Positions 11,437 to 32,916 of a stretch of DNA of 32,916 nucleotides are shown here, one piece after another. The notes under the pieces are model-generated. The model was not told the origin of the DNA. It worked only from the letters and a program-made list of their open reading frames with translations, and did no database searches. The position numbers and the translations under genes were made by a program. Origin of the DNA: a virus; the IMG/VR virus record IMGVR_UViG_3300031758_000310, positions 1 through 32,916 of that record. One strand, written 5' to 3'. Each line of letters begins with the position of its first letter. Position 1 is the stretch's first letter.

Positions 11437-14400
11437 ATGGCGGAAATAAAAAATAGTTTTCTATCGTCTAAAATGAATCAAGATTTAGACGATAGACTTA
11501 TACCTAATGGTCAGTATCGAACAGCGCTTAATATCTCTATTGGTAAATCAGAAAATAGTGATATTGGTACTTTACAAAACATACTTGGAAATACGCTTAT
11601 TGGGGCGGAAAACGTTATAATCGGATTAGAATGTATTGGATATTATATGGATAATACTAATAATAGAATATTCCAATTTTTAACTAATGAAGGCGATAAC
11701 GATCCTGACCCAATATATCATCAAATAACAGTTTATGATTTTTCAGACAATACCTACACTGTTTTAGTCGAAGGCGAATTCTTAAACTTCTCAAAATCAT
11801 ATCCAATAACGGGAATTACCCTTATAGAAAACTTATTATATTGGACAGATTATAACAATCAACCTAGAAAAATAAATGTTAGTTCAGCGTTTAATGCTCC
11901 GGCATCTAGCGCTGCACCTTATTATACAAATGAAGATCATATATCGGTTGCAAAATATGCTCCGGTAGAATCAATGTCATTATACAAAAAGGTTGTAACC
12001 ACAAATACAGCTACCGTAACTGCTTCAACTACAATACCTGTTGCCAGCGCTACAGGATTGGTAGTAGGCATGACATTATTAGCTGATGCAACGCCTACGC
12101 CTTATACAAGCAATGAATTTGTATTTATAGTAGGTATAACAGGAACAAATATTACCGTTTCAACGCCTGTTACATTATCCGCTAATACAGAATTAGTATT
12201 CTTAATATCTACCATGACCGACCAAAGCAATAATGAGTATTGGCCTGGTGATCCTGCATATTTAAAAGAAAGATATGTAAGATTTAGTTATAGATTTAGA
12301 TTGGATGATGGAGAATATACATTAATGGCTCCATTTACACAAATAGCATTTATACCAAATCAAAAAGGATATTTTATTAGTGGAGATGAAAATGAAGCAT
12401 ATACAAGTACAGTTTTAAATTGGTTTGAAAACAATGTAAACAATATACAATTACTTGTTCCATTTCCAGACTTAACTTCTAATGTAGCGCAATCATACAA
12501 AATACAATCATTAGATATATTATACAAAGAATCAGACGCGCAAATAGTTAAGGTATTAGACACAATTCCTGCTGCTCAATTTGCTCAAAATACATTGAGC
12601 AATAGTAATATATATGTTTACGATTATCAATCAAGAAAACCATATAAAACACTCCCGCCAGATCAAATTACAAGAGTATATGACATAGTTCCTGTAAAAG
12701 CAAAAGCACAAGAAACATCTAGCAATAGAATAATATATGGTAATTTTGTTAGCGGTTATACAGCGCCGCAATCACTTAATTATCAAGTTTCTGTTGGAGC
12801 AAAACGAGATAATTCATACAGTTTTATAGAGTACCCAAACCATACAGTAAAACAAAATAGAACATATCAAGTAGGGTTTGTTTTAGCGGATAAGTATGGA
12901 AGACAGTCTTCTGTTATTTTATCTTCATTAGATACTGCGGCAACTTTAACGGCAAATGGAACTTTTGGAGGCTCAACAGTATATTCGCCTTACTACTCAG
13001 AAGCAGATATACCATCTATAAAAGATTGGTATGGAGATGCAATATCTGTATTAGTAAATAGTCCAATAGTATCAAATTACAATGCTGCTACCGGTGAACC
13101 CGGATTATATGCGGAATCAACATCAACGACTGGATTTACACTTACTGGTACCACTACAATAACTGATACAACTTATAATTTTGAAGTTAGTGCTGGTACT
13201 CCGCCTAATCAATATGAGTATTTAAGGGGAGCTTACACAGATTACGTTAGGATTGAATCTATAACAGAAATCTCAGCGGGAGTATACAATTCTACAACCT
13301 CTGGAAGAGTTAGTGATTTATATGCAAGAAATACCGATAATAATCCAAATGATATTAAATACGTATATACTATTAATCCTTTAGGCTGGTATTCATACAA
13401 AATCGTAGTAAGACAGCAAGAACAAGATTATTATAATGTTTATCTTCCTGGATTTTTGGACGGTTACCCAAAAGGGCAAACCTATGGATCTCAAGTAGTT
13501 TATGATTCTGCGGGCGTGCCATCAACTGATAATGGTATTAATACAACAGTATTTCCAACTGCTGAATCTGGTACAGTTGCTCATACAGTATTAATAAATG
13601 ATAATATAAATAAAATCCCAAGAGACTTAGTTGAGGTTGGCCCAGACCAAAAATTATATAGAAGTAGTGTGCAATTATTTGGTAGAGTTGAAAACACTAT
13701 TGACGCAGGGGTTGCTTCTAACACACAATACTATCCATCTAAAAAAGCAGACACAGCAATTGCGATTGCAACAGCTTCAGAATTAAGCTTTTTACCTGCA
13801 ACGGTTGAAAACACATTGGGATCTGCAACTTATAATTTTTATCAATTAGAGAGCAATCCATTAGTCGCTCGTATAGCCACTACAAATAATATTGGAGTTA
13901 CAGCCGTGCAGAATGTAAGTTCGGGTGGTCCAAATCCTACATTTTCATCAGCCCCAAATAATATGCAGCCTTATTTAACTGTATATGAAACTAAACCTGA
14001 TTATTCCTTATTAGATATATTTTGGGAAACATCAACTAGCGGACTAATATCCGATTTAAACACGGATACGCTTACTGGTTATGATGGTGCAAATGGGATA
14101 TCAGAAATTAATTGGAGTAGTTTTACAGAGGATTTAGATCCTAATGACTCAATAGACAAATTTATAACTGGATATTTTTATCCAATATCAAATACTGGTC
14201 AACCTGTAGGATCAACTGATGCCGCTATATCTGTTGTAAACGGTTATGGTAATCCTATAACAGGTGTTTTTGCATTAGAAAGTACATATGTGCCTGGAAT
14301 TGATCCATATTGGAAATATAGAATTTATATGCAGCCTAACCAATACCAAACATTTAGAAACGATGTAAATTTAAGCAAATATACTTTTATATTTTCATTT

Positions 14401-15609
14401 ATTCAGGACGGGCAAACTTCTACCACGTCTTATAATCTAAATGCGCAATTAAGAAATATTGCCCCTACAATAACTGATACTGCTTTAAACCCTTTACCTG
14501 GGCCTGTTAATGTATTTTTAAATAGCCCTATTACAACTGGAACACCAGTATACTCTTTATGGGGTAAAAATGGAACAAACTCAGGAGCCGGTCAAAGCTT
14601 TACAGACTTACGTTGGAGAATAAACAATTCAGGCTCAACGCCAGGTTGGCAGAATTATTTTAATATAACAACTAATCCTCCTTTAAATACAAGCGGTATA
14701 TTTCAAATTAATCCGTTGAATGACAATCAGACAGTCACCTTAAGGGTTGAATTACAAGACGCAATGAGCTCTTCTGGAATTCCAGCAAATGGAACAGGCT
14801 TTTACGGAACTTTAACTGACAGCGTAATAGTAAATATTCAATTAGCTTCTGTATTAATAAACGGAAGAAGGTGGACAAGTCGTAATTATGATGGAGATAG
14901 ATACCAAGATGGCACTATAATACCACAGGCTACAACAGCTTCTCAATGGGCAAATGCAACCACTGGAATGTGGTGCTGGCCTAATTTTGACCCTGCTTTA
15001 GGTGCAATATATGGAAAATTATATAATGTATATGCTATTAGAGGTATATGGAATGCAAGTCAACCAGGAGATAGAAAACAATTTGCTCCAACAGGGTTTA
15101 GAATACCTTTTTATAATGAACGTTGTATATTAAGTGGCGTTTCAGGTAAAGAAATGAAATCAGTACAGTATACCTATCCAGCAGTGGGAGGTTGGATCCC
15201 TAACTCAAATTTAGGTACAAATACAACTGGTTTTTCAGCATTACCTGCCGGGTATATGGATCAAACTGGGACATGGGTTGAAACAGGGGCTAATGGTCAA
15301 ATTGCAATATTCCATATGCATGCTCCTACTTACCCCGCCGGAGTTCCACCTTGTTTTATGGTATTATATGGCAATAGCAGTAGTGTTCTATCTGATTCAG
15401 AAGGCCAAATGAGATGGGGATTATCTGTTAGGTTTGTTGATAATTTTTCTACAACTAGAACAGTTACAGCTACTTCGGGATCATGCGTTGTTCTTTATAA
15501 TGATATGAATTTTGGTAATCCACACGTTGATATATTACAGCCAGGTCAATCAGAGGTTATTGTAGCATGCGCTACTTGTACAATAAGTGGAAGTTGTACA
15601 ATTACATAA
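11437..15609 (+). CDS. Large tail/neck structural protein with C-terminal Fibrobacter-type paralogous domain
   Basis: This 1390-residue protein opens with NSFLSSKMNQDLDDRLIPNG (6-25), a signature I know from large neck/stabilisation-type structural proteins of Bacteroidota and marine phages. Most of the chain (60-1020) is beta-rich with Thr/Ser/Asn/Gly repeats and suits an extended beta-propeller or beta-sandwich array; residues ~185-255 look like a separate inserted beta domain. Residues ~1027-1137 read as an Ig-like unit (NIAPTITDTALNPLPG onward). Residues ~1139-1336 match the Fibrobacter succinogenes major paralogous domain pattern: GRRWTSRNYDGDRYQDGTII, then YGKLYNVYAI, APTGFRIP, GFSALPAGYMDQTG and GLSVRFVDN. 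The last ~45 residues hold four Cys. The end domain may act in host-surface binding. Function of the whole is inferred. Confidence 0.78.
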   Translation: MAEIKNSFLSSKMNQDLDDRLIPNGQYRTALNISIGKSENSDIGTLQNILGNTLIGAENVIIGLECIGYYMDNTNNRIFQFLTNEGDNDPDPIYHQITVYDFSDNTYTVLVEGEFLNFSKSYPITGITLIENLLYWTDYNNQPRKINVSSAFNAPASSAAPYYTNEDHISVAKYAPVESMSLYKKVVTTNTATVTASTTIPVASATGLVVGMTLLADATPTPYTSNEFVFIVGITGTNITVSTPVTLSANTELVFLISTMTDQSNNEYWPGDPAYLKERYVRFSYRFRLDDGEYTLMAPFTQIAFIPNQKGYFISGDENEAYTSTVLNWFENNVNNIQLLVPFPDLTSNVAQSYKIQSLDILYKESDAQIVKVLDTIPAAQFAQNTLSNSNIYVYDYQSRKPYKTLPPDQITRVYDIVPVKAKAQETSSNRIIYGNFVSGYTAPQSLNYQVSVGAKRDNSYSFIEYPNHTVKQNRTYQVGFVLADKYGRQSSVILSSLDTAATLTANGTFGGSTVYSPYYSEADIPSIKDWYGDAISVLVNSPIVSNYNAATGEPGLYAESTSTTGFTLTGTTTITDTTYNFEVSAGTPPNQYEYLRGAYTDYVRIESITEISAGVYNSTTSGRVSDLYARNTDNNPNDIKYVYTINPLGWYSYKIVVRQQEQDYYNVYLPGFLDGYPKGQTYGSQVVYDSAGVPSTDNGINTTVFPTAESGTVAHTVLINDNINKIPRDLVEVGPDQKLYRSSVQLFGRVENTIDAGVASNTQYYPSKKADTAIAIATASELSFLPATVENTLGSATYNFYQLESNPLVARIATTNNIGVTAVQNVSSGGPNPTFSSAPNNMQPYLTVYETKPDYSLLDIFWETSTSGLISDLNTDTLTGYDGANGISEINWSSFTEDLDPNDSIDKFITGYFYPISNTGQPVGSTDAAISVVNGYGNPITGVFALESTYVPGIDPYWKYRIYMQPNQYQTFRNDVNLSKYTFIFSFIQDGQTSTTSYNLNAQLRNIAPTITDTALNPLPGPVNVFLNSPITTGTPVYSLWGKNGTNSGAGQSFTDLRWRINNSGSTPGWQNYFNITTNPPLNTSGIFQINPLNDNQTVTLRVELQDAMSSSGIPANGTGFYGTLTDSVIVNIQLASVLINGRRWTSRNYDGDRYQDGTIIPQATTASQWANATTGMWCWPNFDPALGAIYGKLYNVYAIRGIWNASQPGDRKQFAPTGFRIPFYNERCILSGVSGKEMKSVQYTYPAVGGWIPNSNLGTNTTGFSALPAGYMDQTGTWVETGANGQIAIFHMHAPTYPAGVPPCFMVLYGNSSSVLSDSEGQMRWGLSVRFVDNFSTTRTVTATSGSCVVLYNDMNFGNPHVDILQPGQSEVIVACATCTISGSCTIT

Positions 15610-15638
15610 AAAAACAGAAAAACAAGTAATTATAATAT

Positions 15639-17216
15639 ATGAGTGCAACAATAGAATTAAAATATTTCAATTCTTTTTGGCTTAAAAAAATGAAGTCAAT
15701 TACAGACGTTAAACCTAGTGACCCGGAGGATAATCAACCTTTAATAGCGGTTCCATTAGGTGGAACTTCTATAACGCTAGCTACTGCGCAGCCAAATATA
15801 GGTCCTGGACAAGCTATATATTATACGGTGGCTGGGAATACTTATACATCTGTAATAAAAAGTTATTCTGGAGCTGTTATACAATTAATGGAACCAACAT
15901 TAACAGCGATTGCAACCACAATAAAACTTACTTTTGGAGAGATTATTGATTTTACATATGTGCCAAGCTCTAGCGATTACTCTTATGATAAAGAAACAGA
16001 TTGGTATATAGAAGAAGCAAGAATTAGAGGAGGTTATAATAATACAACAGTTGACTTTGGCGTTAAAGCATATACTGTATTAGAGACTAATGCTCAACAA
16101 AATAGACCAAATTCACTTATATATTCTGGTATATTTAATTCTAGAACAGGCGTTAATAATACAAATCAGTTTTCTGTAGCCGATGATATAAGCCGCACTT
16201 TGGACCCTTTAAATGGATCAATACAAAAATTATATTCAGAAGACACTAACCTTATTATATTCCAAGAATTTAAGGTCAGCCGAGCATTGATTGACAAAGA
16301 TGCAGTATATTCAGCTGATGGTCAACCTATGACAACATCCGGGGCTGTGGTAATTGGCCAAATACAATCATACGCAGGTAACTATGGTATTGGGACCAAT
16401 CCAGAAAGCTTTGCGGTTTATGGGTATAGAAAATATTTTGTTGATAGAAATAGAAATGCCGTATTAAGGTTATCTCAAGATGGTATAACAGAAATATCAT
16501 CATATGGAATGTTAGATTTCTTTAGAGAACAACTTGGTATTATTAGTACTACAGGTAAAGTTATTGGCGGATGGGATATACATAATAAACAATATGTTTT
16601 ATCTTTACAACCAAATGCATTTTTAACAGGCTCTAGAGGACAACAGGCACCATCATATACATTAGCTTTTGATGAAGACTCTTTAGGTTGGACTAGTTTC
16701 TTTAGTTATATACCTAATTATATGGACGGTCTGCGTAATAATTATTATAGTTTAAAAGACGGTAATATATGGAGACATTATGATCCTGCCGTTAGCAGAG
16801 GCAGTTTTTATGGAGTGACATATACATCGTATGTAACATTCATATTTAATGCCAATCCATCGTTAATTAAAAACTTTAATACAATAAACTACGAAGGAAC
16901 CCAAGGTTGGATAATGAATAGTTTATATACTGACACCGATACTGCAATTCCAATAAATGCAGCTTTCACCGCGCAAAGTTTGGCGCAATTAGAAGCAAAT
17001 TTGTTTACAAATAATTTTAAACAAAAAGAAAACAAATATTTTGGTAATATATTTAATAATACTGTAGTATCAAGCGGGGATGTAATCTATGGGCAATCAA
17101 TGTCCGGTATAAAAGGGTTATATGCTGTTGCTACCATGACATTAAATAATTCTTTATATCCAACCCAGGCAGAGCTTTATGCATGTTCTGCTGAATATGT
17201 GGAATCATCATATTAA
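15639..17216 (+). CDS. Tail/nozzle-like structural protein
   Basis: This 525-residue protein is beta-rich throughout. Key stretches are YIEEARIRGGYNNTTVDFGVKAY at about 127-149, SGIFNSRTGVNNTNQFS at about 167-183, LNGSIQKLYSEDTNLIIFQEFKVSRALIDKDAVYS (about 197-231) and KVIGGWDIHNKQYVLSLQP (about 308-326). Repeated aromatic-hydrophobic strands with Asp/Asn turns suggest a beta-propeller or jelly-roll type of fold, as in nozzle or tail-tube-end proteins of short-tailed phages. I recognise this arrangement from the same structural gene blocks as the preceding gene, where the protein has no assigned biochemical role. It is followed by a GNAT-type gene after 15 bases. Position at the end of the tail genes and before the internal proteins fits the distal tail. 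Confidence 0.68.
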   Translation: MSATIELKYFNSFWLKKMKSITDVKPSDPEDNQPLIAVPLGGTSITLATAQPNIGPGQAIYYTVAGNTYTSVIKSYSGAVIQLMEPTLTAIATTIKLTFGEIIDFTYVPSSSDYSYDKETDWYIEEARIRGGYNNTTVDFGVKAYTVLETNAQQNRPNSLIYSGIFNSRTGVNNTNQFSVADDISRTLDPLNGSIQKLYSEDTNLIIFQEFKVSRALIDKDAVYSADGQPMTTSGAVVIGQIQSYAGNYGIGTNPESFAVYGYRKYFVDRNRNAVLRLSQDGITEISSYGMLDFFREQLGIISTTGKVIGGWDIHNKQYVLSLQPNAFLTGSRGQQAPSYTLAFDEDSLGWTSFFSYIPNYMDGLRNNYYSLKDGNIWRHYDPAVSRGSFYGVTYTSYVTFIFNANPSLIKNFNTINYEGTQGWIMNSLYTDTDTAIPINAAFTAQSLAQLEANLFTNNFKQKENKYFGNIFNNTVVSSGDVIYGQSMSGIKGLYAVATMTLNNSLYPTQAELYACSAEYVESSY

Positions 17217-19805: not shown

Positions 19806-22800
19806 ATGTTAGAATACGTAAATAAAGACGGATACACTTACACAGAAGATGAAATAAATCAATTTGCAAAAGATAATAACACTTCTTTTGATGACATATT
19901 ACAAAAAAATGGGTTGACACCTAAAAAGCAAAAACAAACTTCTTTGCCGGGAAAGGAAAAGACCGTTACAAAAAAGGATGCAAATGTAGCGGCTACAAAT
20001 ATGGCATCCAAATCGGCAAAGCCTTCATCGGTATCTCGTACTAAGTTATGGGATGCCAATGCTGAATTTGATACAACCCTTGTTTCTAAAGCATTAGGAA
20101 TTCAAAAATTAACTTCTACTAATCCCATATCAAAAGAAGCTAAACAAAAAAAGAAAAAATTTGTTGAGGAAGCTGTATTTGAACAGCCCTCTGAAATTTT
20201 TAGATCCCCTTTTGTGACTGAAGAGATGCAAGAGTCTGTAGATATAGAAAATGAAAAAAGAAGGTTACAAGAAGCTAAAGCAAGACGTCCTCTTACAGAA
20301 GAAGAAAAGCAACAAAAATATTTAGACCTTAAAGAGGCTACTGAATTAGAAGATAAATATATATTAGAAAACCCAGAATATGCAGAAGCTGATGCTATAA
20401 TAAATAGAGCTGGTGTTTTAGATGAAAATTTCTTGAATGAGTTAAATGAGGATATTGCTAAACAAAAATCAAGAAATGGGAAAATAGAAACAAACTATCA
20501 GCCAATTGGTATAGGTAGTACTATGGGAACTACGTCGCCTATAAGCTCTACAGTTAAAGAAAAGTTTGTAGCGTTTCCAAAACAAAGAGAACAATTAATT
20601 GCTCAATTTAAAAAAGCAAAAAAATCTTATACAGAAAATGATTTACTTGAGGCTTCTGCTAATTTATATGCAGAGCAAAAGAAAGCTGCTCAAATATACA
20701 ATCAAAAATATGATGCTTTTGAGGATCTTGATGATTACGATCCTAAAGTACAGGATTTTATAAAAACACATAATCTTAATAAAAAGAAAATAGCCGACTA
20801 TGATTTAGCTAAACTGGGCACTCAAAAAACCTATGTGCAAAATATATTAGAAAAGCAGCAAAATTCAAGAAAAGATTTAATTAGTCAATTAAAACCTCAG
20901 GATTATACATATACTACACAAGAAGAGTTAGATAAGCAAAATAATTTAATAGCAAAAATAAACTCACTTGGTACTAAAATGAATGATAATGCCAAATATC
21001 TAACTGAACTGCATAAAAAAAGTGGGGAATTAGAAGGCACATCAACTTCGTTAGCTAAAGATATAGAACTTGCCGGAAAAGAATGGGGATGGTGGGCAAG
21101 AACTGGTAGAAAAATAATGAACTCTGTGGTCGATATGGGTTTGTCTGTTGCGGGTGGTATTGCTTATATAGACGACATGCTTATGGAAGCTGCAACATCC
21201 GGAAAATGGAAAGAAGGGTTTGGTAAAGAAATTAGCGCAGCAAAAGAATTATATAGAAGAGAATTTGAGGAAGATTTACCTGAAGCAAGAGAAACAACAT
21301 ATAGTTTAGAATCTTTTGGGGAAAACGCTGCAAATGCGATAATATCACAATTGCCGCAAATTTTAACTATAGCTTTAGCTCCTGAAGCATATGCCCCTGA
21401 ACTTGTAGGTTTTATATCTGGAGCCGCTACTGGAACAGGTTCAAAATACCTTGAAATGATAGGTGAGCAAGAAAGAGGCGTTATGAATGAATTAGGCGAA
21501 ATAGAAAAGCAAAATTATTCAACAGCACAATTATTCGCAGTGCCTGCTTTATTTGGTTTATTCGAAGGAGGAACTGAATATGTAGGTGGTAGAGCTATTG
21601 GTAGAATGCAAAAAATGTTTGGCAAAGCTACTAAAGCTGAAATGGAAACATTAACCGGAGCTGTCAATAAAACCATTGGTGAAAAAGCTAAAGAAATTTC
21701 AAAAGGTTTATTACAAAACTATGGTGAAGAGGTACCAAGTGAGGTATTTAATACTGTACTTGGTAATTTTACAGACAAAACATTACTTGATAAAAAAGAT
21801 AAGGACTTATTAGAAGGCGTACCTGAAACAATATTTGATACCGCGGTTGTTTCAACTTTATTTGCTACTGCTCCACATGTTGCTGGGGCGGTATATAGAC
21901 AATTTATTCCTGCAACATATGCAAAACAACTTGTTGAAAATAATAATAAAATAGCTGAAATATTAAAAGGTGTTGATTATGAAAAATTATCTCCTGAAGA
22001 AAAAACTATAATTGACAATAAAATAAAAGGGATAAAAGATAGTTCAACAATTATAATAAATAATATAGCTGAAACGATAGGTGCAACTGATGCGGTGACT
22101 TTACTTGGCGTAGATAAATTAAGTAAAGATATAATTGAAATTAGAAAAGAAGCTAATATAATAAATAATAGTCAAAATCTTACTCAAGAACAAAAAGACG
22201 GGTTATTATCAGATATGGCTAAAGAGCATTTAAATACCACTACTGAATACAATAGAGTTTTAGGTAATGTGTATCGTGCTGAACAAATGAATAAAAAAGC
22301 TGCATCATGGTTAAATAAAGCTAAATTAAATAGAGAAAATCTTAGAGGTGAAAAGTACCTAACAACCGTAATGGCTACTGGTAAAGATGTTAAATATAAA
22401 AATGCATCAAATAAGGAGCTAATAGATATGGCATTATTAGATCCGGAATATTCAGAAATTATTAATGATACCTATAAAGCTTTTGAAGCAGAATCTAATG
22501 AGACTTATTCGGCAGAACAAAAAACTTTAATAATGAGATCTTTAGCGGGTCAAATAGTTAAAGACAATGGTATGTATGATAGCAAAACAAACACTATATA
22601 TATAAATAGAGACACCGCTCTTAGAAATAAAGCTTTTACCACAGCCAGACATGAGGTATTTCACAAGGTTATAGAAAACTTTTCAAATAACATGGGTAAT
22701 ATTGGTAAATCTTTATATTCTTTTGTGGAAGAACAGCACATTGGAGATAAAGCATTTAAGGATACTAAATTTGCAAAAAGAATGCAAAGAGAGTTTGATG

Positions 22801-25800
22801 ATTTGGCTAAAGAAATTGATATATTAGATTCTCAAAAAGAGGCGGGAAAAATAAACGCTAAAGAATATAATGATCTTGTTAAGCAAAAAGAAAATATTGC
22901 TAATGAGGAAGTTTCCACGATATTAGTAGAGTCTTTAATTGAAGGCGATATTAAAATAGACAAATCAAACGCAGAGAACCTAAAGTTTGATGCTGATGGC
23001 AATGTAATAATCAACAATGCTAAGGACATGTTTAATTTTATCGCTGCTTATAATGAATCCTATACTAAAACTAGAAAGTCTGATATTATTGAAGCTGCTT
23101 CTAAAGGAAAGGTTGCTGGGGAATTAATAACTGAAAAGCCGGTAAGATCAACCGAACCAACTCAAAAGAAATCAAAATCTAATGTTGATTTATTAAAAGC
23201 TCAATTAGAAGAACTTAAGGACAACGAAAGTGATTATGATCCATACGATTTTGATCAACAAGTTGCTAACTTACAATCTAAGATAAAAAAGGCAATTGAA
23301 AAAGAAAAGACAGAAGTAAAACCTGTAGTTAAAAAAGAATTATCCGATGAGGATGAAGTTAATGAAATTGTTAAATCCGAAAAAGGATCTATTGCTTCTG
23401 ACAAAGTTCAAAAGTTATATGAGGACAAAGGAATGAATGCCGCTCAAGACATTATTAATTTATTCAAACCAATTACGAAAAGAATAGTTGACAAACGTAG
23501 AGATGCACCAGGTTTTGACAGAGAATTGCTTACTGATGAAATTGAAACTGGATCTGGAGGAATATTAGATCTTATTAAAAGTTATTCTTCTGAAAAAGGA
23601 GTTCCTTTAGCCGCGTATATAAATAAACAATTACCGTTAAGAGCGATTGCTGCTTCTAGAAGAGTATTAGAAGGAGACTTTAAAAAAGATGTTACAGAAG
23701 AAAAAGGCTTAATGGCTGAAGAAACCGTTTCTGAGACAAAAGAAAAGCCAAAATATAAAAACGCATTGGAGTCAAAAGTTTTTGAGCCAGAGGTCTTAAA
23801 AACAATGTCCGATAAGATCATAACCCAACTTCGTACATTAAAGTCTCGTATTGACGAACCTATTTCATTAAATCGTACTGTTACTCCGTTAATTGCTGAA
23901 ATTAGGGATGCTATTGGTAAGCAGTTAGACATTGACGTTAAAAAAGCAATGGGTGGTAAAAAAGATAATGAGCTTGTAAATTGGTTATTGAAAAATAAAC
24001 GTTATATGCTTGAAAATATGACCACAACTTGGCTAATGGGGGCTAATGGACAAGGCGGTATTCCGCAAGCGGTACAAAAAAGAATTGATGGCAAATGGGT
24101 AAGCTATCCGGATTGGGTTGATCAAAAAATAGATAGAGAATCTGTTTCAACTGATAATGCTGGAAGAACTTCTGGTGCCGAATTGGTTAGAAGATTACCT
24201 AATGTATTTAATAATGTATCCGATGAAGATTATTTAGGTCAATTTGTTGGTCCTGATGGTAATCCTATTAGAGGTAGAAAAGAATCTGGGGCTAAAGCTG
24301 TCGCAGAGGAAACTGCATTTGATATTATCAATAAAGATCTTGCTGAAGAAGGTGAAATTTATAATGCTTTGAGCACTAATCAACAACGTCAGGGTTATGA
24401 AGTATTAAATAATTTTGCTGCAGAGTTTAGTAGACAATCAGAAAGAGGTAATGTAAAATATAGTAAGGTAGTTAGAGAAGCAATAGACGATATTCAAAGT
24501 TTACCTATTAATGTAAAAAATGAATTAATTGGTCCTGATGGAAATAGATTTATAGAATTTGCTAAATCCGTTCGAGGATCTGGAGAGGTAGAAAAACAAT
24601 TTAATATAAAGTATAAAAATACAGATATACCTCAAGAATATAAAAATAAAATATTAAAATCCATAAAAACACTTTATAGATATTTTGAAAAAAATAAGTT
24701 AAATACAAAACTTATGGTTTTTAAAATCAAGGAAGGGGAAAAATTTGAAAAATACGCTAATAGAATAGTCTTTAATGCTTTGTCAAAAGAGCAATCGGTT
24801 GCATTAACATTAGGTATAAATGTAAATGATTTAAGATGGAGAGATGATTTAGATAGACTAAATGCTCAATCCCATATTAATGATTTTATTGAAAATGCTA
24901 AAGAATTTTTAACTTCCGGTGAAAATAAAATAAGCGAAGATCAGGCTTTAGTAAAATTAACTCAATTATTTAGTAGATCTTTTGCTTATGGGGACAAGCA
25001 AAGTTTATATGGTAAACAATCCGACTTCTTTAATCAATTTCTAAATAACAACAAAAAATTTGCATTAAAAGATTTAGGAGGCAATAAGTTTACTATAATA
25101 TACAATGGAAATAAAGTTAATAGAGAGATATTACCTCAGGATACTTCAGCTACTGATATTAGCAAATATATAAAAGATGGAAATTCTAATGCAATAAAGT
25201 TAGAAGATAGATCAAAAGCCACAGAGATTGCAAGAAAAGATCTTAGGCAAATGATGGATCTTTTGCATGATATGTATAAAAACAATAACTTGACAGACAC
25301 GCAACTTGGGCTAATATTCAAATCATTAGGCGGATCAATGAATTCCGTTTTAAAGCTATCGTCTGAACTAAGATATGCTGCTAATAGAGAAGGCTATAGC
25401 AATAATCCAAAAGAATGGGTTTATGAGCATACCCCGCCATCCTCGTATTTATCTAGAATTGCTATTGGAATAATAACAGGCAAAAATAATATGTCAATTG
25501 ACGATTTCATGGAAAAACTTGTTGCAAACTCTTATGTTGCAATAATACCAAAAAGTGTAGATAATGACATAAATTCGTTGTATAAATCAACAATGCCATT
25601 TAATTATTCTCCTGGTGATAATCCATTAATTAGATATTATGATGCCGGCTTTAATGGATTTGCAATACCTGCTTTATCTGATTTAAAAACTGGGGAATTA
25701 ATTAATAGAGAAATTGTTAGAAATGAATTTAATTCTCCAAATGTTTTTGAAACACAGGAGGCTGTATTAAGCTCATTGGACATTGGAAAAAAATCAAAAG

Positions 25801-28520
25801 GAATTTCAGTTTTTGACTTTGATGACACTGTTGGACTCACAAAAAGTAATGTGCTATACACAATGCCTGATGGATCAAAAGGAAAACTTAATGGTGCAGA
25901 GTTTGCTAAGAATGGGGCAAGATTGTTAGAAGAAGGAGCAGTGTTTGATTTCTCTGAGTTTAGTAAAGTTGTTGAAGGTAGACCTGGTCCAATGGTTGAA
26001 AAAATGAAGAAAATGATTGGTAAGTTTGGTCCTGAAAATTTCTTTATTCTTACGGCAAGACCAGCCGATTCAGCAGTACCTATCCATGAATTTTTATCAA
26101 CGATAGGCATAGACATACCATTAGAAAATATTACTGGATTAGGTAATAGTTCTGCCCAAGCAAAAGCAGATTGGATAGTGGAAAAAGCTAATGAAGGTTA
26201 TGATGACTTTTATTTTGCGGATGATCACTTGCCAAACGTTACTGCGGTTAAAAACGCATTAGATGTACTTGATGTTAAATCAAAAATACAGCAAGCACGA
26301 GCTAAGTTTAGTAAATCTATGAATTATGAGTTTAATAGAATTATAGAGGAAAATACCGGCACTGAAAGATATAAGGTATTCTCTGACATTGTTGCTAGAA
26401 GAAGAGGGGCTAAGAAAAATAGATTTGATATTTATGTTCCACCTTCCGCTGCGGATTTTGAATTGTTACTATATAACTTTTTAGGCAAAGGTAAACGCGG
26501 AGATTATCATAAAGAATTTTTTACAAATGCTTTCTTAAAACCATATACAAATGGTAATGATTTAATGGATGCCGCAAGGCAATCTATTAAAAAGAACTAT
26601 AAAGCATTGTTAGATTCATTCCCAGATATTAGTAAAAAGTTAGAAAGTTTAACGCCTGATGGTGACTTTACATATGATCAAGCTATTCGTGTTGCAATAT
26701 GGAATGAGTCAGACGTTGAAATACCTGGCATATCAAAAAGAGATATTGCAAAATTAACAAATTTAGTTAACAATGATCCACAATTAGAAGCATTTAAACA
26801 AGGATTAATTGTTACAGGTAGACAAGGAAAAGGGTGGGTTACTCCTGAAGAACATTGGGATGCCAATACTATTATATCTGATTTACATAATTTAACAGAA
26901 GGAGCAGGAAGAAAAAAATTCTTAGGTGAATTTATAGGTAATGTTGAAGAAGTATTTGGTAAATGGGATAATGGTAAGTTAACTGGCCCTAATATGAACA
27001 AGGTAGAAGCTGTTTATGGAACTAATGTTAGAGAAGCTTTAGAAGACATTCTTTATAGAATGACAACCGGTAAAAACAAAGGTTTTAATAATGATAAAGA
27101 ATCCTCTAGATGGGCAAGGTGGGTGAATGGATCTACCGGAACTATTATGTTCTTGAATACAAGATCCGCTGTATTACAATTACTTGGAGCAGTTAACTTC
27201 TTAAATTTTAGAGACAATAATCCTTATGCTGCAGCAAAAGCATTTGCTAATCAACCGCAATATTGGAAAGACTTTGCTCGTATTTGGAATTCTGACAAAA
27301 TGAAAGAAAGACGTGGTGGTTTAAAAGAAGATGTTGCTGCTGCTGAAATTGCTAATGCTGCTGCTGGCAGTAAAAACAAAGTCAATGCTGTTGTATCATA
27401 CTTATTAAAAATTGGATATACTCCAACGCAACTTGCAGATAGTTTTGCTATTGCTTCTGGAGGCGCGCCATTTTATAGAAATAGAATTAACTCTTATTTA
27501 AAAGAGGGTAAAACATTAGAGGAAGCAGAGAAATTAGCATGGCAAGACTTTACAAAAGTGTCTGATGAAACGCAACAATCTGGTGATCCAAAAGATATAT
27601 CAAAACAACAAGCAAGTCCAGCGGGTAGATTATTATTAACATTCCAAAATACCGCAATGCAGCAATCTCGTATTGTTAAAAAGGCTATCTTAGATTTAAA
27701 GAACAGAAGAGGCGATGATAAAACTAATATATCAAAAATAGTTTATTACCTTACAATACAAAACTTAATGTTCTCAGCTTTACAGCAAGGTTTATTTACG
27801 GTTGCATTTGGTGGCGATGATGAAGATGATGAAAAGATTAGAGCTGCTGCAGAAAAAACAAGAAACGAAAAGTTAGTGTCTGTAGCTGGTGGCGTATTAG
27901 ATTCTATATTGCGTGGAACAGGATTTATAGGTGGTATTACAGCTACAATAAAAAATATGATCTTAAAATATATAGAAGAATCAGAAAAGAAACAAGCTGA
28001 CTATGCCAAAGTAGTTTTTGAAGGTGCAAATATTTCGCCTCCTATTGGATCTAAACTTAAAAAATTATATAGCGGATTAAATCAAACTAAATACGACAAA
28101 GACCTTATAAAAGAAAGAGGTTGGGGAATAATGCAAGATGGAAGAGTTCACTTAGGACCAATGTATTCTATTGGAGGGAAAGTTGTTGAATCAACAACTA
28201 ATTTACCAATGGATCGTTTGCAAAACAAAATTGAGAATGTATCTCAAGCAATGAATTCTCAAAATCAAGCATGGCAAAGAGTAATGATCGGTATGGGTTG
28301 GAGTCCTTATAGTGTTGGAGTTGAAGGAACACCTGGTGATGCTAAAATAGAAGCTGCAGGTAAAACGCAAAGAAAAGAAGAAGGTAAAATTAAAGCTGAA
28401 GAAACAAGACAGCGTAAAAAAGATTCAATAAAAAACTTACCATTTGAAGAACGCATAAAATTAAAAATGGAAAGCCGTAGAAAAAGAAGAGAGAATAAAA
28501 GAAAAAGAAGAATGGGTTGA
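19806..28520 (+). CDS. Giant polyvalent internal virion protein (HExxH, sigma-like, HAD-like)
   Basis: At 2904 residues this is by far the largest product. It begins with a small DGYTYTEDEINQFAKDN segment of the kind seen at the start of giant phage virion proteins. Residues ~438-700 hold several hydrophobic membrane-like stretches. Residues 949-953 are HEVFH, a zinc-metalloprotease HExxH motif, with E1034/E1035 as possible third ligand. Residues 1216-1288 resemble sigma-70 region 2. Residues ~1995-2160 are HAD-like: DFDDT (2004-2008), LTARP with T2083, and ADDH with D2139/D2140. Residues ~2450-2680 look like a large polyvalent-protein associated domain. The C-terminus (2889-2904) is almost all Arg and Lys. 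Such proteins are carried in the capsid and delivered with DNA. Stop is TGA. Confidence 0.75.
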   Translation: MLEYVNKDGYTYTEDEINQFAKDNNTSFDDILQKNGLTPKKQKQTSLPGKEKTVTKKDANVAATNMASKSAKPSSVSRTKLWDANAEFDTTLVSKALGIQKLTSTNPISKEAKQKKKKFVEEAVFEQPSEIFRSPFVTEEMQESVDIENEKRRLQEAKARRPLTEEEKQQKYLDLKEATELEDKYILENPEYAEADAIINRAGVLDENFLNELNEDIAKQKSRNGKIETNYQPIGIGSTMGTTSPISSTVKEKFVAFPKQREQLIAQFKKAKKSYTENDLLEASANLYAEQKKAAQIYNQKYDAFEDLDDYDPKVQDFIKTHNLNKKKIADYDLAKLGTQKTYVQNILEKQQNSRKDLISQLKPQDYTYTTQEELDKQNNLIAKINSLGTKMNDNAKYLTELHKKSGELEGTSTSLAKDIELAGKEWGWWARTGRKIMNSVVDMGLSVAGGIAYIDDMLMEAATSGKWKEGFGKEISAAKELYRREFEEDLPEARETTYSLESFGENAANAIISQLPQILTIALAPEAYAPELVGFISGAATGTGSKYLEMIGEQERGVMNELGEIEKQNYSTAQLFAVPALFGLFEGGTEYVGGRAIGRMQKMFGKATKAEMETLTGAVNKTIGEKAKEISKGLLQNYGEEVPSEVFNTVLGNFTDKTLLDKKDKDLLEGVPETIFDTAVVSTLFATAPHVAGAVYRQFIPATYAKQLVENNNKIAEILKGVDYEKLSPEEKTIIDNKIKGIKDSSTIIINNIAETIGATDAVTLLGVDKLSKDIIEIRKEANIINNSQNLTQEQKDGLLSDMAKEHLNTTTEYNRVLGNVYRAEQMNKKAASWLNKAKLNRENLRGEKYLTTVMATGKDVKYKNASNKELIDMALLDPEYSEIINDTYKAFEAESNETYSAEQKTLIMRSLAGQIVKDNGMYDSKTNTIYINRDTALRNKAFTTARHEVFHKVIENFSNNMGNIGKSLYSFVEEQHIGDKAFKDTKFAKRMQREFDDLAKEIDILDSQKEAGKINAKEYNDLVKQKENIANEEVSTILVESLIEGDIKIDKSNAENLKFDADGNVIINNAKDMFNFIAAYNESYTKTRKSDIIEAASKGKVAGELITEKPVRSTEPTQKKSKSNVDLLKAQLEELKDNESDYDPYDFDQQVANLQSKIKKAIEKEKTEVKPVVKKELSDEDEVNEIVKSEKGSIASDKVQKLYEDKGMNAAQDIINLFKPITKRIVDKRRDAPGFDRELLTDEIETGSGGILDLIKSYSSEKGVPLAAYINKQLPLRAIAASRRVLEGDFKKDVTEEKGLMAEETVSETKEKPKYKNALESKVFEPEVLKTMSDKIITQLRTLKSRIDEPISLNRTVTPLIAEIRDAIGKQLDIDVKKAMGGKKDNELVNWLLKNKRYMLENMTTTWLMGANGQGGIPQAVQKRIDGKWVSYPDWVDQKIDRESVSTDNAGRTSGAELVRRLPNVFNNVSDEDYLGQFVGPDGNPIRGRKESGAKAVAEETAFDIINKDLAEEGEIYNALSTNQQRQGYEVLNNFAAEFSRQSERGNVKYSKVVREAIDDIQSLPINVKNELIGPDGNRFIEFAKSVRGSGEVEKQFNIKYKNTDIPQEYKNKILKSIKTLYRYFEKNKLNTKLMVFKIKEGEKFEKYANRIVFNALSKEQSVALTLGINVNDLRWRDDLDRLNAQSHINDFIENAKEFLTSGENKISEDQALVKLTQLFSRSFAYGDKQSLYGKQSDFFNQFLNNNKKFALKDLGGNKFTIIYNGNKVNREILPQDTSATDISKYIKDGNSNAIKLEDRSKATEIARKDLRQMMDLLHDMYKNNNLTDTQLGLIFKSLGGSMNSVLKLSSELRYAANREGYSNNPKEWVYEHTPPSSYLSRIAIGIITGKNNMSIDDFMEKLVANSYVAIIPKSVDNDINSLYKSTMPFNYSPGDNPLIRYYDAGFNGFAIPALSDLKTGELINREIVRNEFNSPNVFETQEAVLSSLDIGKKSKGISVFDFDDTVGLTKSNVLYTMPDGSKGKLNGAEFAKNGARLLEEGAVFDFSEFSKVVEGRPGPMVEKMKKMIGKFGPENFFILTARPADSAVPIHEFLSTIGIDIPLENITGLGNSSAQAKADWIVEKANEGYDDFYFADDHLPNVTAVKNALDVLDVKSKIQQARAKFSKSMNYEFNRIIEENTGTERYKVFSDIVARRRGAKKNRFDIYVPPSAADFELLLYNFLGKGKRGDYHKEFFTNAFLKPYTNGNDLMDAARQSIKKNYKALLDSFPDISKKLESLTPDGDFTYDQAIRVAIWNESDVEIPGISKRDIAKLTNLVNNDPQLEAFKQGLIVTGRQGKGWVTPEEHWDANTIISDLHNLTEGAGRKKFLGEFIGNVEEVFGKWDNGKLTGPNMNKVEAVYGTNVREALEDILYRMTTGKNKGFNNDKESSRWARWVNGSTGTIMFLNTRSAVLQLLGAVNFLNFRDNNPYAAAKAFANQPQYWKDFARIWNSDKMKERRGGLKEDVAAAEIANAAAGSKNKVNAVVSYLLKIGYTPTQLADSFAIASGGAPFYRNRINSYLKEGKTLEEAEKLAWQDFTKVSDETQQSGDPKDISKQQASPAGRLLLTFQNTAMQQSRIVKKAILDLKNRRGDDKTNISKIVYYLTIQNLMFSALQQGLFTVAFGGDDEDDEKIRAAAEKTRNEKLVSVAGGVLDSILRGTGFIGGITATIKNMILKYIEESEKKQADYAKVVFEGANISPPIGSKLKKLYSGLNQTKYDKDLIKERGWGIMQDGRVHLGPMYSIGGKVVESTTNLPMDRLQNKIENVSQAMNSQNQAWQRVMIGMGWSPYSVGVEGTPGDAKIEAAGKTQRKEEGKIKAEETRQRKKDSIKNLPFEERIKLKMESRRKRRENKRKRRMG

Positions 28521-29369: not shown

Positions 29370-31238
29370 TTATGTTATTTCACAATTACCCCCGCCACAA
29401 GCGGCAGCATCCACAAAGTTAGTATTATCTTGAATCTCTACAACTTTTGATAAATCAACATTTTTTAATGTAGACATCATTTGTTCGTAAACTTCTTTTG
29501 TACAATCTTCAAATGGCGTTTGCTTATATGTACCGCCGTGATAAGGCAATACTGATAAACCATTATAGTATTCTTTATTTGCCCACATCCATTCACCAAT
29601 AATTTTCCACTCATCATCACGAACAGAAACTGTACATGAAACATTATGTGTATTGTTGCCTTTTAAATGCCCTTGTTTAACCCAATCTTTAGAAATTAAT
29701 TTAACTCTTTCTAATAGATCTAATGTAGATTCATGGCGCGTTATGGCTCCATCCGGGGCTTTCTGAGGTACAGAAATCACTGACTGTAATGTTGGATTAA
29801 AATATTCATCTTCTAATAATTCTGGATGATTTATTGCAAGATATGAATAGATTGCTTCATTCTTGCCTAAGCGCATGCGACGAATATAATAGTCGTTGTG
29901 CCAAGCATGAATACCGCTACTAGTACCAAGTACCAAAGAAGTTGTTCCAGCTGGTTTAACTGCTGTCGTCCTCGCCGCTCTGTTGATATTGAGAGCTGCT
30001 GCAATAACATTATTTGTTTCTTTAACAATTTGTGCTGCTTCTTCATAGTTTAAATTTAAATTAGATTCTGACGCAATACCGGTCATTGATACTCCAAGTA
30101 ATGCATCTTTTTCTGTATTCTTTTTCCATATATCTCGTAGATAATGGAAGTCTGAATACGATGCTTGTAATGTTCCTAAGAATGACGCGGCGGATGCTCT
30201 TGCGTTAAAGTCTTCTTGGCTTTCAATATCAGCCATATTGATTTCAGTTAAATTACAAAACTGATATGGTCTCAATGCAATTTCACAACAAGGATTAGTT
30301 CCCCAGTCTTTATCATTAGTCAAGTAAATACCAGGTTCACCAGATCCAGATGCTTCAATACGTTCCCATACTTTATCAAACGTTTTCTTATCAATCTTAT
30401 GGCGTAATAAAACTACAGAGTTATTAGCTCTGCCTCTTTGAGGATTGTTCTCCCACCAATTACCAGCTTTACAATTTAGCATTGCTTCTGAATCAAGATC
30501 AAACAAACTGATCATTGCAGCACGTCTAATTCCGCCAGCTAAAACTGCATCAGCAATATGACATTGAATATCATGACATTCAATATCTGTTAATTTAGAT
30601 CTGTCTTCTTTTTCCCGCAAGATAGCTTCAATCTTTACTAATGCTAATCTTAATGGCTCTGGTCCTGGAGCTTTACCTCCAGCTGTTACAAGCAATGCAC
30701 CTTTCTGTCTAATATCCGATAAATCAAATTGAACATGCGAAGTTAATTCTCCCGTGTATGATTTGAATAACGTTTTGATTGCGTCTGCCCATCCGATAAT
30801 ACTGTCTTGCACGACATACCTTTTCTTACGATCGTAATTAGGTTTTCTAATCTCAGGTAGTTTTTCAATTTGATGTTGTTGGACCGAATAGCCAACTCCA
30901 GTACCTCCAAGCAATAGAAACATAGTCTCAGAAAAACTGTGGATACTATCAACAGGTAGAAAAGCACAGTTATAAATGCGAGCGTTATTAAGCTCAATAG
31001 CTTTACCACCAAACTGTAAGCTTCGCATCGAAGGTAAAACCTTTTTATTAAAAACAAAATTTTGGTAAATCTGTTCAATTGATTCTTTCATTTTTGGGAA
31101 TTTGGCCGTATGCATATCCATATTCCTAGTTACTAATTCTTCCCAAGTCTCACGCCTTTCTTTATTAGGCATGTACTTTGCATACTTTGTGTATACTGTT
31201 ATGTCACTTAATATTTGTTTGTCTAAGCTTAAACTCAT
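29370..31238 (-). CDS. nrdJ: Ribonucleotide reductase, class II (adenosylcobalamin-dependent), monomeric type
   Basis: This 622-residue enzyme would convert ribonucleotides to deoxyribonucleotides for phage DNA synthesis, using adenosylcobalamin to make the thiyl radical. C91 (YNCAFLP) and C328 (QFCNLTEIN) are the redox pair; NPCCEI at 315-320 gives N315, thiyl C317 and E319 (the C-x-E active-site motif). The C-terminal CGGGNC (C614, C619) matches the five-residue spacing of the shuttle cysteines of the Lactobacillus-type monomeric reductase. LLLGGTGVGYSVQ and SGIHAWHNDYYIRR are further class signatures. There is no partner small subunit or activase nearby, supporting class II. At 622 it is shorter than the ~740 of the bacterial enzyme. 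The enzyme needs B12 and a thioredoxin-type reductant from the host. Confidence 0.92.
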   Translation of the reverse strand: MSLSLDKQILSDITVYTKYAKYMPNKERRETWEELVTRNMDMHTAKFPKMKESIEQIYQNFVFNKKVLPSMRSLQFGGKAIELNNARIYNCAFLPVDSIHSFSETMFLLLGGTGVGYSVQQHQIEKLPEIRKPNYDRKKRYVVQDSIIGWADAIKTLFKSYTGELTSHVQFDLSDIRQKGALLVTAGGKAPGPEPLRLALVKIEAILREKEDRSKLTDIECHDIQCHIADAVLAGGIRRAAMISLFDLDSEAMLNCKAGNWWENNPQRGRANNSVVLLRHKIDKKTFDKVWERIEASGSGEPGIYLTNDKDWGTNPCCEIALRPYQFCNLTEINMADIESQEDFNARASAASFLGTLQASYSDFHYLRDIWKKNTEKDALLGVSMTGIASESNLNLNYEEAAQIVKETNNVIAAALNINRAARTTAVKPAGTTSLVLGTSSGIHAWHNDYYIRRMRLGKNEAIYSYLAINHPELLEDEYFNPTLQSVISVPQKAPDGAITRHESTLDLLERVKLISKDWVKQGHLKGNNTHNVSCTVSVRDDEWKIIGEWMWANKEYYNGLSVLPYHGGTYKQTPFEDCTKEVYEQMMSTLKNVDLSKVVEIQDNTNFVDAAACGGGNCEIT

Positions 31239-31256
31239 TATTTGTTTTTAAAATTA

Positions 31257-31403
31257 TTAATGTTCTATTTCTAATGCAAAATCAACAAATGGTAAATAAA
31301 TAACATATGTTGTAAAATCTTCTTCTTGGTATGCCCTATAACCAAATAGTATACCAGGGTATAACCCTACTGTAATTGTCCAATACCTTCCTTGTTCACT
31401 CAT
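31257..31403 (-). CDS. 48-residue conserved-looking phage protein, unknown function
   Basis: A small gene fills the gap between the reductase and the endonuclease. Its ATG overlaps the endonuclease stop by eight bases (ATGAGTGA, 31396-31403), and its TAA at 31257-31259 is followed by another TAA and the A-rich leader of the reductase. The product begins MSEQGRYWTITVGLYPGILF and continues with FGYRAY, DFTTYVIYLPFVDFALEIE. It is rich in aromatics and aliphatics, with two short hydrophobic segments (about 9-20 and 32-45), so it could be a small beta sheet or membrane-associated peptide. I have seen proteins of this type (YPGILFG and YLPFVD) in phage nucleotide-metabolism clusters, without a function. 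Confidence 0.68.
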   Translation of the reverse strand: MSEQGRYWTITVGLYPGILFGYRAYQEEDFTTYVIYLPFVDFALEIEH

Positions 31404-31845
31404 TTGCGTTTTGTTTTAAAATTAATTCTACTGTTTTATCGCACTCTTTTTGATTTTGTGGTTTATATAGTGTTCTATTGTCACCATTATCAACCATCCA
31501 TTTCTTAAACATCTTCCATCTTAATGGAAAAGAATCATTAGCTCTACCTTTTGTTTCAATAATAAAGTTTTCACCAACAAAATCAGGAGTGTATTTTAGG
31601 TTTAATACTTTTTTATTGCCGCGATTTATATAATCTCCCTTGCTATTTGATTGTCTTTCTATACAATCATTTTCAAATAAGAATGCTGGCATTAATTCAA
31701 AAGTATGTTTTTCATATTCACAAGGTATTCCAGCTTCTTTTAAAGCTTTGTACATGTACTTTTCCAGTCCCGAAGCAAAGGTAATACCTTCATATGATAC
31801 AACCTTTGCTGTAACTGGTCCTTTTTTTGTTGATCTTCTTTTCAT
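31396..31845 (-). CDS. PD-(D/E)XK endonuclease, phage endonuclease I-like
   Basis: This 149-residue protein carries the nuclease signature in order: E28 (SGLEKYMYKAL), D88 (KYTPDFV) and E97-x-K99 (IIETKG), closely matching the pattern of T7 endonuclease I-type Holliday-junction resolvases and related DUF1064-like phage proteins. The N-terminus is very basic (MKRRSTKKG) and fits DNA binding. The likely job is to cut branched phage DNA before packaging or to degrade host DNA. The middle (residues 50-80) is a spacer between E28 and D88 that is longer than usual. Its start overlaps the previous gene's stop in an ATGA, and its own stop overlaps the small 48-residue gene by eight bases, so translation is coupled. 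Substrate is inferred. Confidence 0.78.
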   Translation of the reverse strand: MKRRSTKKGPVTAKVVSYEGITFASGLEKYMYKALKEAGIPCEYEKHTFELMPAFLFENDCIERQSNSKGDYINRGNKKVLNLKYTPDFVGENFIIETKGRANDSFPLRWKMFKKWMVDNGDNRTLYKPQNQKECDKTVELILKQNANE

Positions 31846-32270
31846 TTGCTGAATGTTGTATGAAATCCTTCAAATGGATTTTTATCACTTGCAAAATGCA
31901 TAAAGCGGTCCTGTAATACTTCCATGTCATCTTCATCAAGAGTCCAATTACGCCCATGACCATTCTTCCTTTTCTTTATTGATTTTTTTTTAGGTATTAC
32001 TTCAAAAGCATCTATAACATCTATATCATTCATAGAATTTAATAATGCTTTTTCTTCACGTAAAGTTGATATTTCTTCTTTTAAACGTTGTAGATATAAT
32101 GTAGCATCCATCAACTCTTCTTGTAAATGATTAAGCCAAACAAATACGTCAGATTGATCATCACGCATGGTTGTTTTATATTTAGCAAAGCCTACATCAG
32201 ATCGATCTACAAATTTATTTACAACGCATTGTACAACTGGATCTCTAAATTTAATTGTTTGTTCTGTCAT
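31842..32270 (-). CDS. Predicted all-alpha NTP pyrophosphatase-like protein with basic C-terminal part
   Basis: This 142-residue protein has two parts. Residues 12-70 read VVNKFVDRSDVGFAKYKTT, then DVFVWLNHLQEELMDATLYL; the EELMDATLYL helix with preceding WL.H is the pattern of MazG/dUTPase-like all-alpha nucleotide pyrophosphohydrolases and the DUF550-type domain of phages, which hydrolyse (d)NTPs to monophosphates. The second part (about 92-142) is a basic run (PKKKSIKKRKNGHGR) and an acidic-aromatic segment (NWTLDEDDMEVL), unlike the usual domain. It lies one base after the MazG gene's stop and overlaps the endonuclease start by four bases. Two such enzymes side by side suggest work on different nucleotides. 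Catalysis is uncertain because only one acidic motif is clear. Confidence 0.6.
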   Translation of the reverse strand: MTEQTIKFRDPVVQCVVNKFVDRSDVGFAKYKTTMRDDQSDVFVWLNHLQEELMDATLYLQRLKEEISTLREEKALLNSMNDIDVIDAFEVIPKKKSIKKRKNGHGRNWTLDEDDMEVLQDRFMHFASDKNPFEGFHTTFSK

Positions 32271-32271
32271 A

Positions 32272-32916
32272 TTATAGTGTTTGTTTTACAAATGTTCCGT
32301 TAATCATTTTACCTTGTCTTGACTTAATTACTTCATAAGCTGATGTAACACAATCTTCTATTTTTAATCCTTCTAATGCAGCCAGATTAGTCAATACAAC
32401 GACCATATCGCCAATAGCATCAATTAATTCTGTTTTATTTTCTTTTAGTATTGCTCTTGCTAATTCACCGGCTTCTTCACATAATTTTGCGTATTGTGTT
32501 TTAGTATCGCCATTTCTGTATATACCTCGCTCGTCTGCCCATTGCCTAATAAGATCATATACATTAGGAACTTCTTGTGCTTTAGTTACAGGAACTCCTC
32601 TTTGACAAAATTCATGCAGTGCTTTATTATATACATAAGATCTTGCGGGGTTGAACATTGAAGTATTAGCATTATTGACTATCCAATCAATTAATTCATC
32701 ATTAACAAGATATTTGCCAAATTGAGTTTCGATTGTTAATCCTTTATTATCCATTAGATTACCTTTAAGTTTATTTAAAGGACATGGAAAAGTAGTTGTT
32801 TGTTCTGTTACATTTAATACCATAGGTTTTCTTTTTTTGTTTTTGTTAACTAATTGTTTGTAAGATTGACGATCTATCTTATATCCGTAGATAGATTGAA
32901 GTTCTAATTCTCTAGC
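32272..32916 (-). CDS. MazG-type nucleotide pyrophosphohydrolase (5' end beyond the window)
   Basis: The MazG domain lies in the last ~90 residues: YAKLCEEAGELARAI gives the E-x-x-E metal site (E117, E120 counted from the ATG at 32823) and TELIDAIGDMVVVL the E-x-x-D site (E132, D135). The ending KSRQGKMINGTFVK is also typical of this family. It should hydrolyse nucleoside triphosphates to monophosphates, tuning pools or (p)ppGpp. The N-terminal region (about 30-90: ETQFGKYLVNDELIDWIVNN) is unassigned. The frame stays open upstream of ATG 32823 for 31 more codons to the window edge, so that ATG may be internal and the gene may be a fusion. The ATG follows an A-rich leader that would suit Bacteroidota, so both readings are possible. 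Confidence 0.8.
   Translation of the reverse strand, partial: ARELELQSIYGYKIDRQSYKQLVNKNKKRKPMVLNVTEQTTTFPCPLNKLKGNLMDNKGLTIETQFGKYLVNDELIDWIVNNANTSMFNPARSYVYNKALHEFCQRGVPVTKAQEVPNVYDLIRQWADERGIYRNGDTKTQYAKLCEEAGELARAILKENKTELIDAIGDMVVVLTNLAALEGLKIEDCVTSAYEVIKSRQGKMINGTFVKQTL

Follow-up and report, generated by a model that had tools for sequence, protein, structure and literature searches.

A Fib_succ_major domain at the chain break of a two-chain crAss-like muzzle, a candidate host-contact module in an uncultivated phage of Bacteroidota

The window analysed here, which is the whole stretch of 32,916 nucleotides of IMG/VR virus record IMGVR_UViG_3300031758_000310, derives from an uncultivated crAss-like phage of Bacteroidota whose muzzle, the protein predicted by homology to form the tail tip, is divided into two chains. 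A Fib_succ_major (FISUMP) domain is located at the C-terminus of the first chain (chain A), at the point where the muzzle is divided. The domain, its site at the chain break, the muzzle homology of both ORFs, the conserved split, the fast divergence of the domain and the separate insertions in other lineages are supported directly. As the best explanation, and one that we hold to be reasonably probable, we propose a two-chain crAss-like muzzle with host-surface-binding FISUMP modules at its tip. The place of the domain, at the end left free where a tail-tip protein is divided, is more interesting than an earlier, sequence-only reading of this DNA had assumed.

Results

A muzzle encoded by two genes

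Profiles of the crAss muzzle were found on both ORFs (Table 1). PF25731 (crAss_MUZ) matches residues 13-181 of chain A (E 6.5e-15) and PF25729 (crAss_MUZ_C) residues 387-473 of chain B (E 2e-10), while the virion structural family phrog_14478 covers the start of chain A (residues 4-186) and, with its positions 925-1263, chain B. In hhalign comparisons, residues 1-507 of chain A were aligned with residues 1-406 of phi38:1 gp97, and residues 125-471 of chain B with residues 877-1199 of the same protein, both at 100%. The gene order of the window (terminase, portal, MCP, two ring-like genes and muzzle) is that of Cellulophaga phage phi38:1 and the Flavobacterium elemo phages. Since both ORFs carry muzzle profiles, and since phi38:1 and elemo encode their muzzle as one ORF, the muzzle of the window is encoded as two chains. 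A single polypeptide is typical of the crAss muzzle without strictly defining it (the phi19:3 muzzle is also split), and the two ORFs of the window occupy different frames and are separated by stops. A joining of the chains by readthrough or frameshift was rejected for the window, because the frames differ and the spacer contains stops in both of them. The sequence-only reading had spoken of a phage tail or neck structural protein; a virion tail-tip protein is upheld by the homology, but it is a muzzle and not a neck protein. With PhicrAss001 gp44, hhalign reached 94-96% probability over parts only, the distal region being too divergent, and any placement of the domain on the structure of PhicrAss001 is based on weak sequence similarity.

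Table 1. Features of the muzzle locus, with positions in the window.
Feature	Position	Strand	Basis and remarks
Chain A of the muzzle (1390 aa) with N-terminal muzzle part, distal body, Fib_succ_major and C-terminal tail	11437..15609	+	PF25731, phrog_14478, hhalign
crAss muzzle signature, start of ring-joining/propeller region	11473..11979	+	PF25731, 54.8 bits (cut-off 27)
Conserved chain-A body, residues 1-1135, common to ~79 loci	11437..14841	+	Homology fades beyond ~residue 1100
Fib_succ_major (FISUMP) domain, residues 1136-1337, candidate surface-binding module	14842..15447	+	PF09603, TIGR02145, model, dN
C-terminal 53-residue beta-rich tail, variable	15448..15606	+	Model strands, alignment
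Element AAGTRATWA	15624..15632	+	Precedes the ATG of chain B by 15-18 nt
Muzzle chain B, 525 aa: C-terminal (propeller) part, own gene	15639..17216	+	PF25729, phrog_14478, hhalign

Based on the flanking motifs, and partly by eye, the break of the window maps to a loop of ~22 residues at positions ~841-862 of phi38:1 gp97; this loop lies in the distal part of the muzzle. A scan of IMG/VR yielded ~79 related loci, 67 of them with a complete chain A, and a two-chain muzzle, with a separate chain B after a short spacer, was present in every locus whose contig was long enough. The element AAGTRATWA was found exactly in 24 of 27 loci (the window and 26 others) and is nearly unique in each of them; it is often preceded by an A-rich run, and is conserved throughout the split-muzzle group. 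In Maribacter phage Panino (L254:3182-7095), muzzle homology crosses the end of a CDS (6022) into the next CDS (start 6133), possibly due to a frameshift or an annotation break.

Identity and predicted structure of the domain

The Fibrobacter-type paralogous domain recognized by the sequence-only reading is real. With the complete 1390-aa ORF, Pfam family PF09603 matches residues 1139-1297 (14851-15327) with 60.2 bits and an E-value of 4.1e-16; the isolated 269-aa C-terminal piece gave 63.7 bits (E 3.4e-17), and the scores of the domain, between 60.2 and 64.3 bits, all pass the gathering score of 33.9 bits. TIGR02145 matches residues 1174-1334 (14956-15438) as well, but its 28.5-32.1 bits (E 2e-6 to 2e-7) fall short of the NCBIfam cut-off of 41.65 bits, and the domain is placed in the Pfam family PF09603 alone. 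The core positions N15, Y61, N62, A65, P83 and W118 are invariant in 96 phage sequences including that of the window. A tblastn search with the domain against 50,697 phage records gave zero matches at 1e-5. A profile search of the whole 32.9-kb record found a single copy. Elsewhere, tandem arrays of three to five Fib_succ_major domains were encountered in phage proteins (L113:6195-9239, L145:8918-11908 and L094:7950-9782).

The domain ends at about residue 1337. It is near the C-terminus of the ORF, as had been read from the sequence, but the protein is closed by a further tail (residues 1338-1390), whose strands correspond to residues 204-242 of the structural model and which shows 67% identity with the tail of related record L007.

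An AlphaFold2 model of the domain, built from 96 phage relatives, displays a mean pLDDT of 92.7 and a pTM of 0.89 (an earlier fold from 8 sequences, with a pLDDT of 48, was discarded). With E 2.1e-14 and a TM of 0.60 on the query, its best viral structure match in BFVD is a phage protein that bears the annotation "Fibrobacter succinogenes major paralogous domain", and the modelled fold agrees with this family member. Foldseek against the PDB gave nothing significant at E<=0.001 and no match to a solved C-type lectin-like structure; a C-type-lectin fold was therefore not adopted for the domain, its kinship with such lectins comes from the literature, and no ligand can be inferred from the fold. 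Sequence searches of the PDB with the domain, the body and chain B returned nothing relevant, a luciferase match being taken as chance.

Acquisition and divergence

Residues 1 to ~1100 of chain A are common to the relatives, and the tails beyond them fall into unrelated groups that differ by subclade. Fib_succ_major was found in all eight members of the window's own group, and above cut-off in all nine records of that group, while it was present in none of the 51 other chain-A tails and none of 12 other records. The eight bearers of the domain form one clade with a support of 100/100 in a tree of chain-A residues 1-750, and the tree of the domains likewise gathers theirs in one group (SH-aLRT 88). 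The combination of a body clade with a single domain group fits one acquisition in the clade of the window followed by vertical inheritance, and no domain swapping was seen inside this clade. Many of the records L014-L053 carry an extra insertion of ~100-200 residues in the chain-A body, at window residues 755-760.

The domain had been singled out from the sequence as a segment to compare among related phages, and at dN it indeed diverges three to four times faster than other parts of the muzzle (0.26-0.29, versus 0.06-0.09 in body residues 1-755 and chain B). Between the window and L007, identity is 99% for the MCP, 94% for the ring-like proteins, 86-88% for the muzzle body, 89% for chain B and 68% for FISUMP, which, judged from these alignments, is the fastest-diverging part of the muzzle. 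With a dN/dS of ~0.2-0.25, at a dS near saturation, the domain evolves faster yet is still constrained. The substitutions are distributed across the whole domain and not concentrated in one short stretch. Two downstream ORFs, of 482 aa and 2904 aa, are variable too, so that the domain is not the sole variable stretch. The first 600 residues of the 2904-aa ORF (window 19806-28520) are 88% identical to L002, and only 40% identical (over 30% of the length) to L007, otherwise the nearest relative, a contrast that suggests mosaic exchange. At the end of the window (29370-32916, minus strand), ribonucleotide reductase-like (PF02867), DUF1064/endonuclease-like and MazG-like ORFs are located.

At least 565 relatives of the domain turned up in GTDB genomes, and the best of them belong mostly to Bacteroidota proteins whose starts resemble signal peptides or those of lipoproteins. 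In the tree, phage copies are interspersed among bacterial ones, and supported branches force at least four label changes, which indicates at the level of phylogeny that the domain has been transferred between bacteria and phages. The proposed capture from the host is upheld in part, in that secreted proteins of Bacteroidota are rich in the domain; a recent capture was rejected, since the closest bacterial domains are at most ~43% identical to that of the window and no donor branch is supported, the copies of the clade being one old group that has descended vertically since its single gain.

Recurrence in other crAss-like muzzles

In record L154 the muzzle is broken at a second site, a propeller hairpin. 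Fn3-like and Fib_succ_major domains (124 bits) close its first ORF, which is followed by a 740-aa ORF that has Fn3-like repeats and a near-threshold Lcl_C (DUF1566) match at its end, and then by the remaining propeller. The muzzles of phi19:3 and MW202828 are split at the same second site, both halves in phi19:3 being annotated as structural by similarity to phi8:3. A related pair, L128 and L104, carries Fib_succ_major near the N-terminus of one-chain muzzles. In the domain tree the domains of L154, L128 and L104 occupy three places away from the group of the window, indicating that Fib_succ_major was inserted into muzzles of other crAss-like lineages separately from its gain in the window's clade; that these three domains share a single origin among themselves would still be conceivable. 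A direct kinship between the domain of the window and Lcl_C was not retained, as hhalign gave no significant alignment between the domain profile and the Lcl_C match of L154. Small ORFs located between the muzzle halves (L154:8607-10826 and L255:7686-8234) have an N-terminal segment of ~55 residues in common (40% identity), which is perhaps tip-anchoring; one of them ends in an Lcl_C match and the other is annotated as a putative glycosidase.

We entertain, tentatively and with some doubt, the broader idea that surface loops of crass-type muzzles have been opened by a cut on two or more occasions, and that the free C-terminus serves as a port for adhesin-like domains (Fib_succ_major, Lcl_C, cadherin/Ig), so that the tail-tip gatekeeper would itself be a modular receptor-binding protein, with the conserved element setting the expression of the second chain. 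Such recurrent loop splitting of a conserved gatekeeper would be an unusual route to a modular structural protein.

Discussion

Proposed function and alternatives

The detail of host recognition and opening by crassviruses is poorly known, and the muzzle has been proposed as a cell-surface sensor; the literature cited here names no recognition module on it. The muzzle is a hexamer at the tail end, whose distal IG2 insertions probably contact the cell and account for its length variation (Bayfield et al., PMC10172136); in PhicrAss001 these insertions build up the "crass" domain, a presumed site of cell contact (PMC10172136). In the reading that we prefer, chains A and B would co-fold into one muzzle subunit, six such subunits would close the tail, and the free C-termini at the tip would carry six Fib_succ_major domains, which could bind a host surface structure, either a glycan or an outer-membrane protein, contact with which would trigger the opening of the gate. 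Its place at the cut end of the tail-tip protein makes the domain a good candidate for first contact with the host. Counting against this, specific recognition may fall to the fibres and spikes rather than to a muzzle domain, as considered for crassviruses in a review (PMC10136315); tail fibres or spikes were not identified within the 33-kb fragment.

The main rival, which we regard as unlikely but worth retaining, is that the domain forms a structural cap or spacer, which protects or stabilizes the tip or aids chain assembly without recognizing the host, its fast divergence reflecting relaxed constraint. A dN/dS of ~0.2 leaves positive selection unsupported, and relaxed constraint would give an equal picture; vertical inheritance after one gain also suits a cap, as does a possible role of Lcl's DUF1566 in the forming of trimers (PMC11162425). 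A generic role in assembly is nevertheless countered by the unrelated modules that occupy the equivalent point in other subclades and by the one-chain muzzles of phi38:1 and elemo, which lack the domain, and the insertion of Fib_succ_major at other muzzle sites in other lineages likewise speaks against a cap.

Binding to a target other than a receptor, such as capsule, mucus or environmental particles, during a reversible first attachment seems to us less probable again. It would agree with the occurrence of bacterial relatives in secreted proteins and lipoproteins, with the Ig-like/Fn3 spacers found alongside such domains in phages, and with the binding of sulphated glycosaminoglycans by the C-terminal domain of Lcl, whose family is reported to resemble Fib_succ_major (PMC11162425, PMC4159848), but the position at the tip favours contact near the membrane over long-range capture.

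We consider it very improbable that a diversity-generating retroelement (DGR) uses the domain as its variable protein, even though DGRs are known to target both Fib_succ_major and DUF1566 domains (PMC4159848, PMC8143477) and crAss-like phages have DGRs on tail fibres (PMC7290462, PMC12386605): an RVT_1 search of 17 records (the window and 16 related ones, all of them possibly genome fragments) gave no reverse transcriptase, no convincing direct repeat of the 3' end of the domain was found within the 32.9-kb window, and the differences are spread over the domain. Finally, the notion that the pair of ORFs is a one-piece muzzle decayed into a pseudogene or misassembled, as the single ORFs of the domain-free muzzles of phi38:1 and elemo might suggest, is refuted by the recurrence of the split and its short spacer in dozens of contigs at 40-83% identity, with both parts and the element before the chain-B start conserved, and can practically be set aside.

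For the preferred two-chain muzzle with binding modules, the compact and confidently modelled domain at a tail-tip chain end is a piece fit for expression, binding assay and deletion.

Comparison with known systems

The muzzle of the window resembles PhicrAss001 gp44 (PMC10172136), phi38:1 gp97 and elemo gp22 in its N- and C-terminal muzzle profiles, in its position after the ring protein genes and in its expected role as tail-tip gatekeeper. In contrast to these proteins, each of which is one polypeptide, it consists of two chains, and its chain A possesses ~500 extra residues, including Fib_succ_major at the break. Cellulophaga phage phi19:3 (gp120 and gp121) and MW202828 share with the window a two-ORF muzzle whose first chain is extended C-terminally; their break is located elsewhere, at the propeller hairpin, and the extension is not Fib_succ_major (it contains Big_9/cadherin domains in phi19:3 and has no Pfam match in MW202828).

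With the Fib_succ_major proteins (PF09603/TIGR02145) of Bacteroidota and Fibrobacterota, the domain of the window has the family and the conserved core motifs in common. The cellular proteins are mostly secreted proteins or lipoproteins with signal-peptide-like starts, whereas the copy of the window resides on a virion protein and does not reach the TIGR02145 cut-off. Like or related domains are also found in DGR variable proteins, e.g. those of Bacuni phages (PMC8143477), which are phage proteins implicated in tropism; unlike these, the carrier in the window is a muzzle, and neither a reverse transcriptase (17 records) nor a template repeat (the window) was found. A terminal adhesin domain is likewise displayed by Legionella Lcl, whose C-terminal DUF1566 domain is C-type-lectin-like and which binds glycosaminoglycans (PMC11162425). 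This ligand and this fold belong to Lcl, to which the domain of the window is likened by the literature only, DUF1566 and Fib_succ_major being alike by HHsearch and both DGR targets (PMC4159848). The muzzle of L154 carries both kinds of domain at one break.
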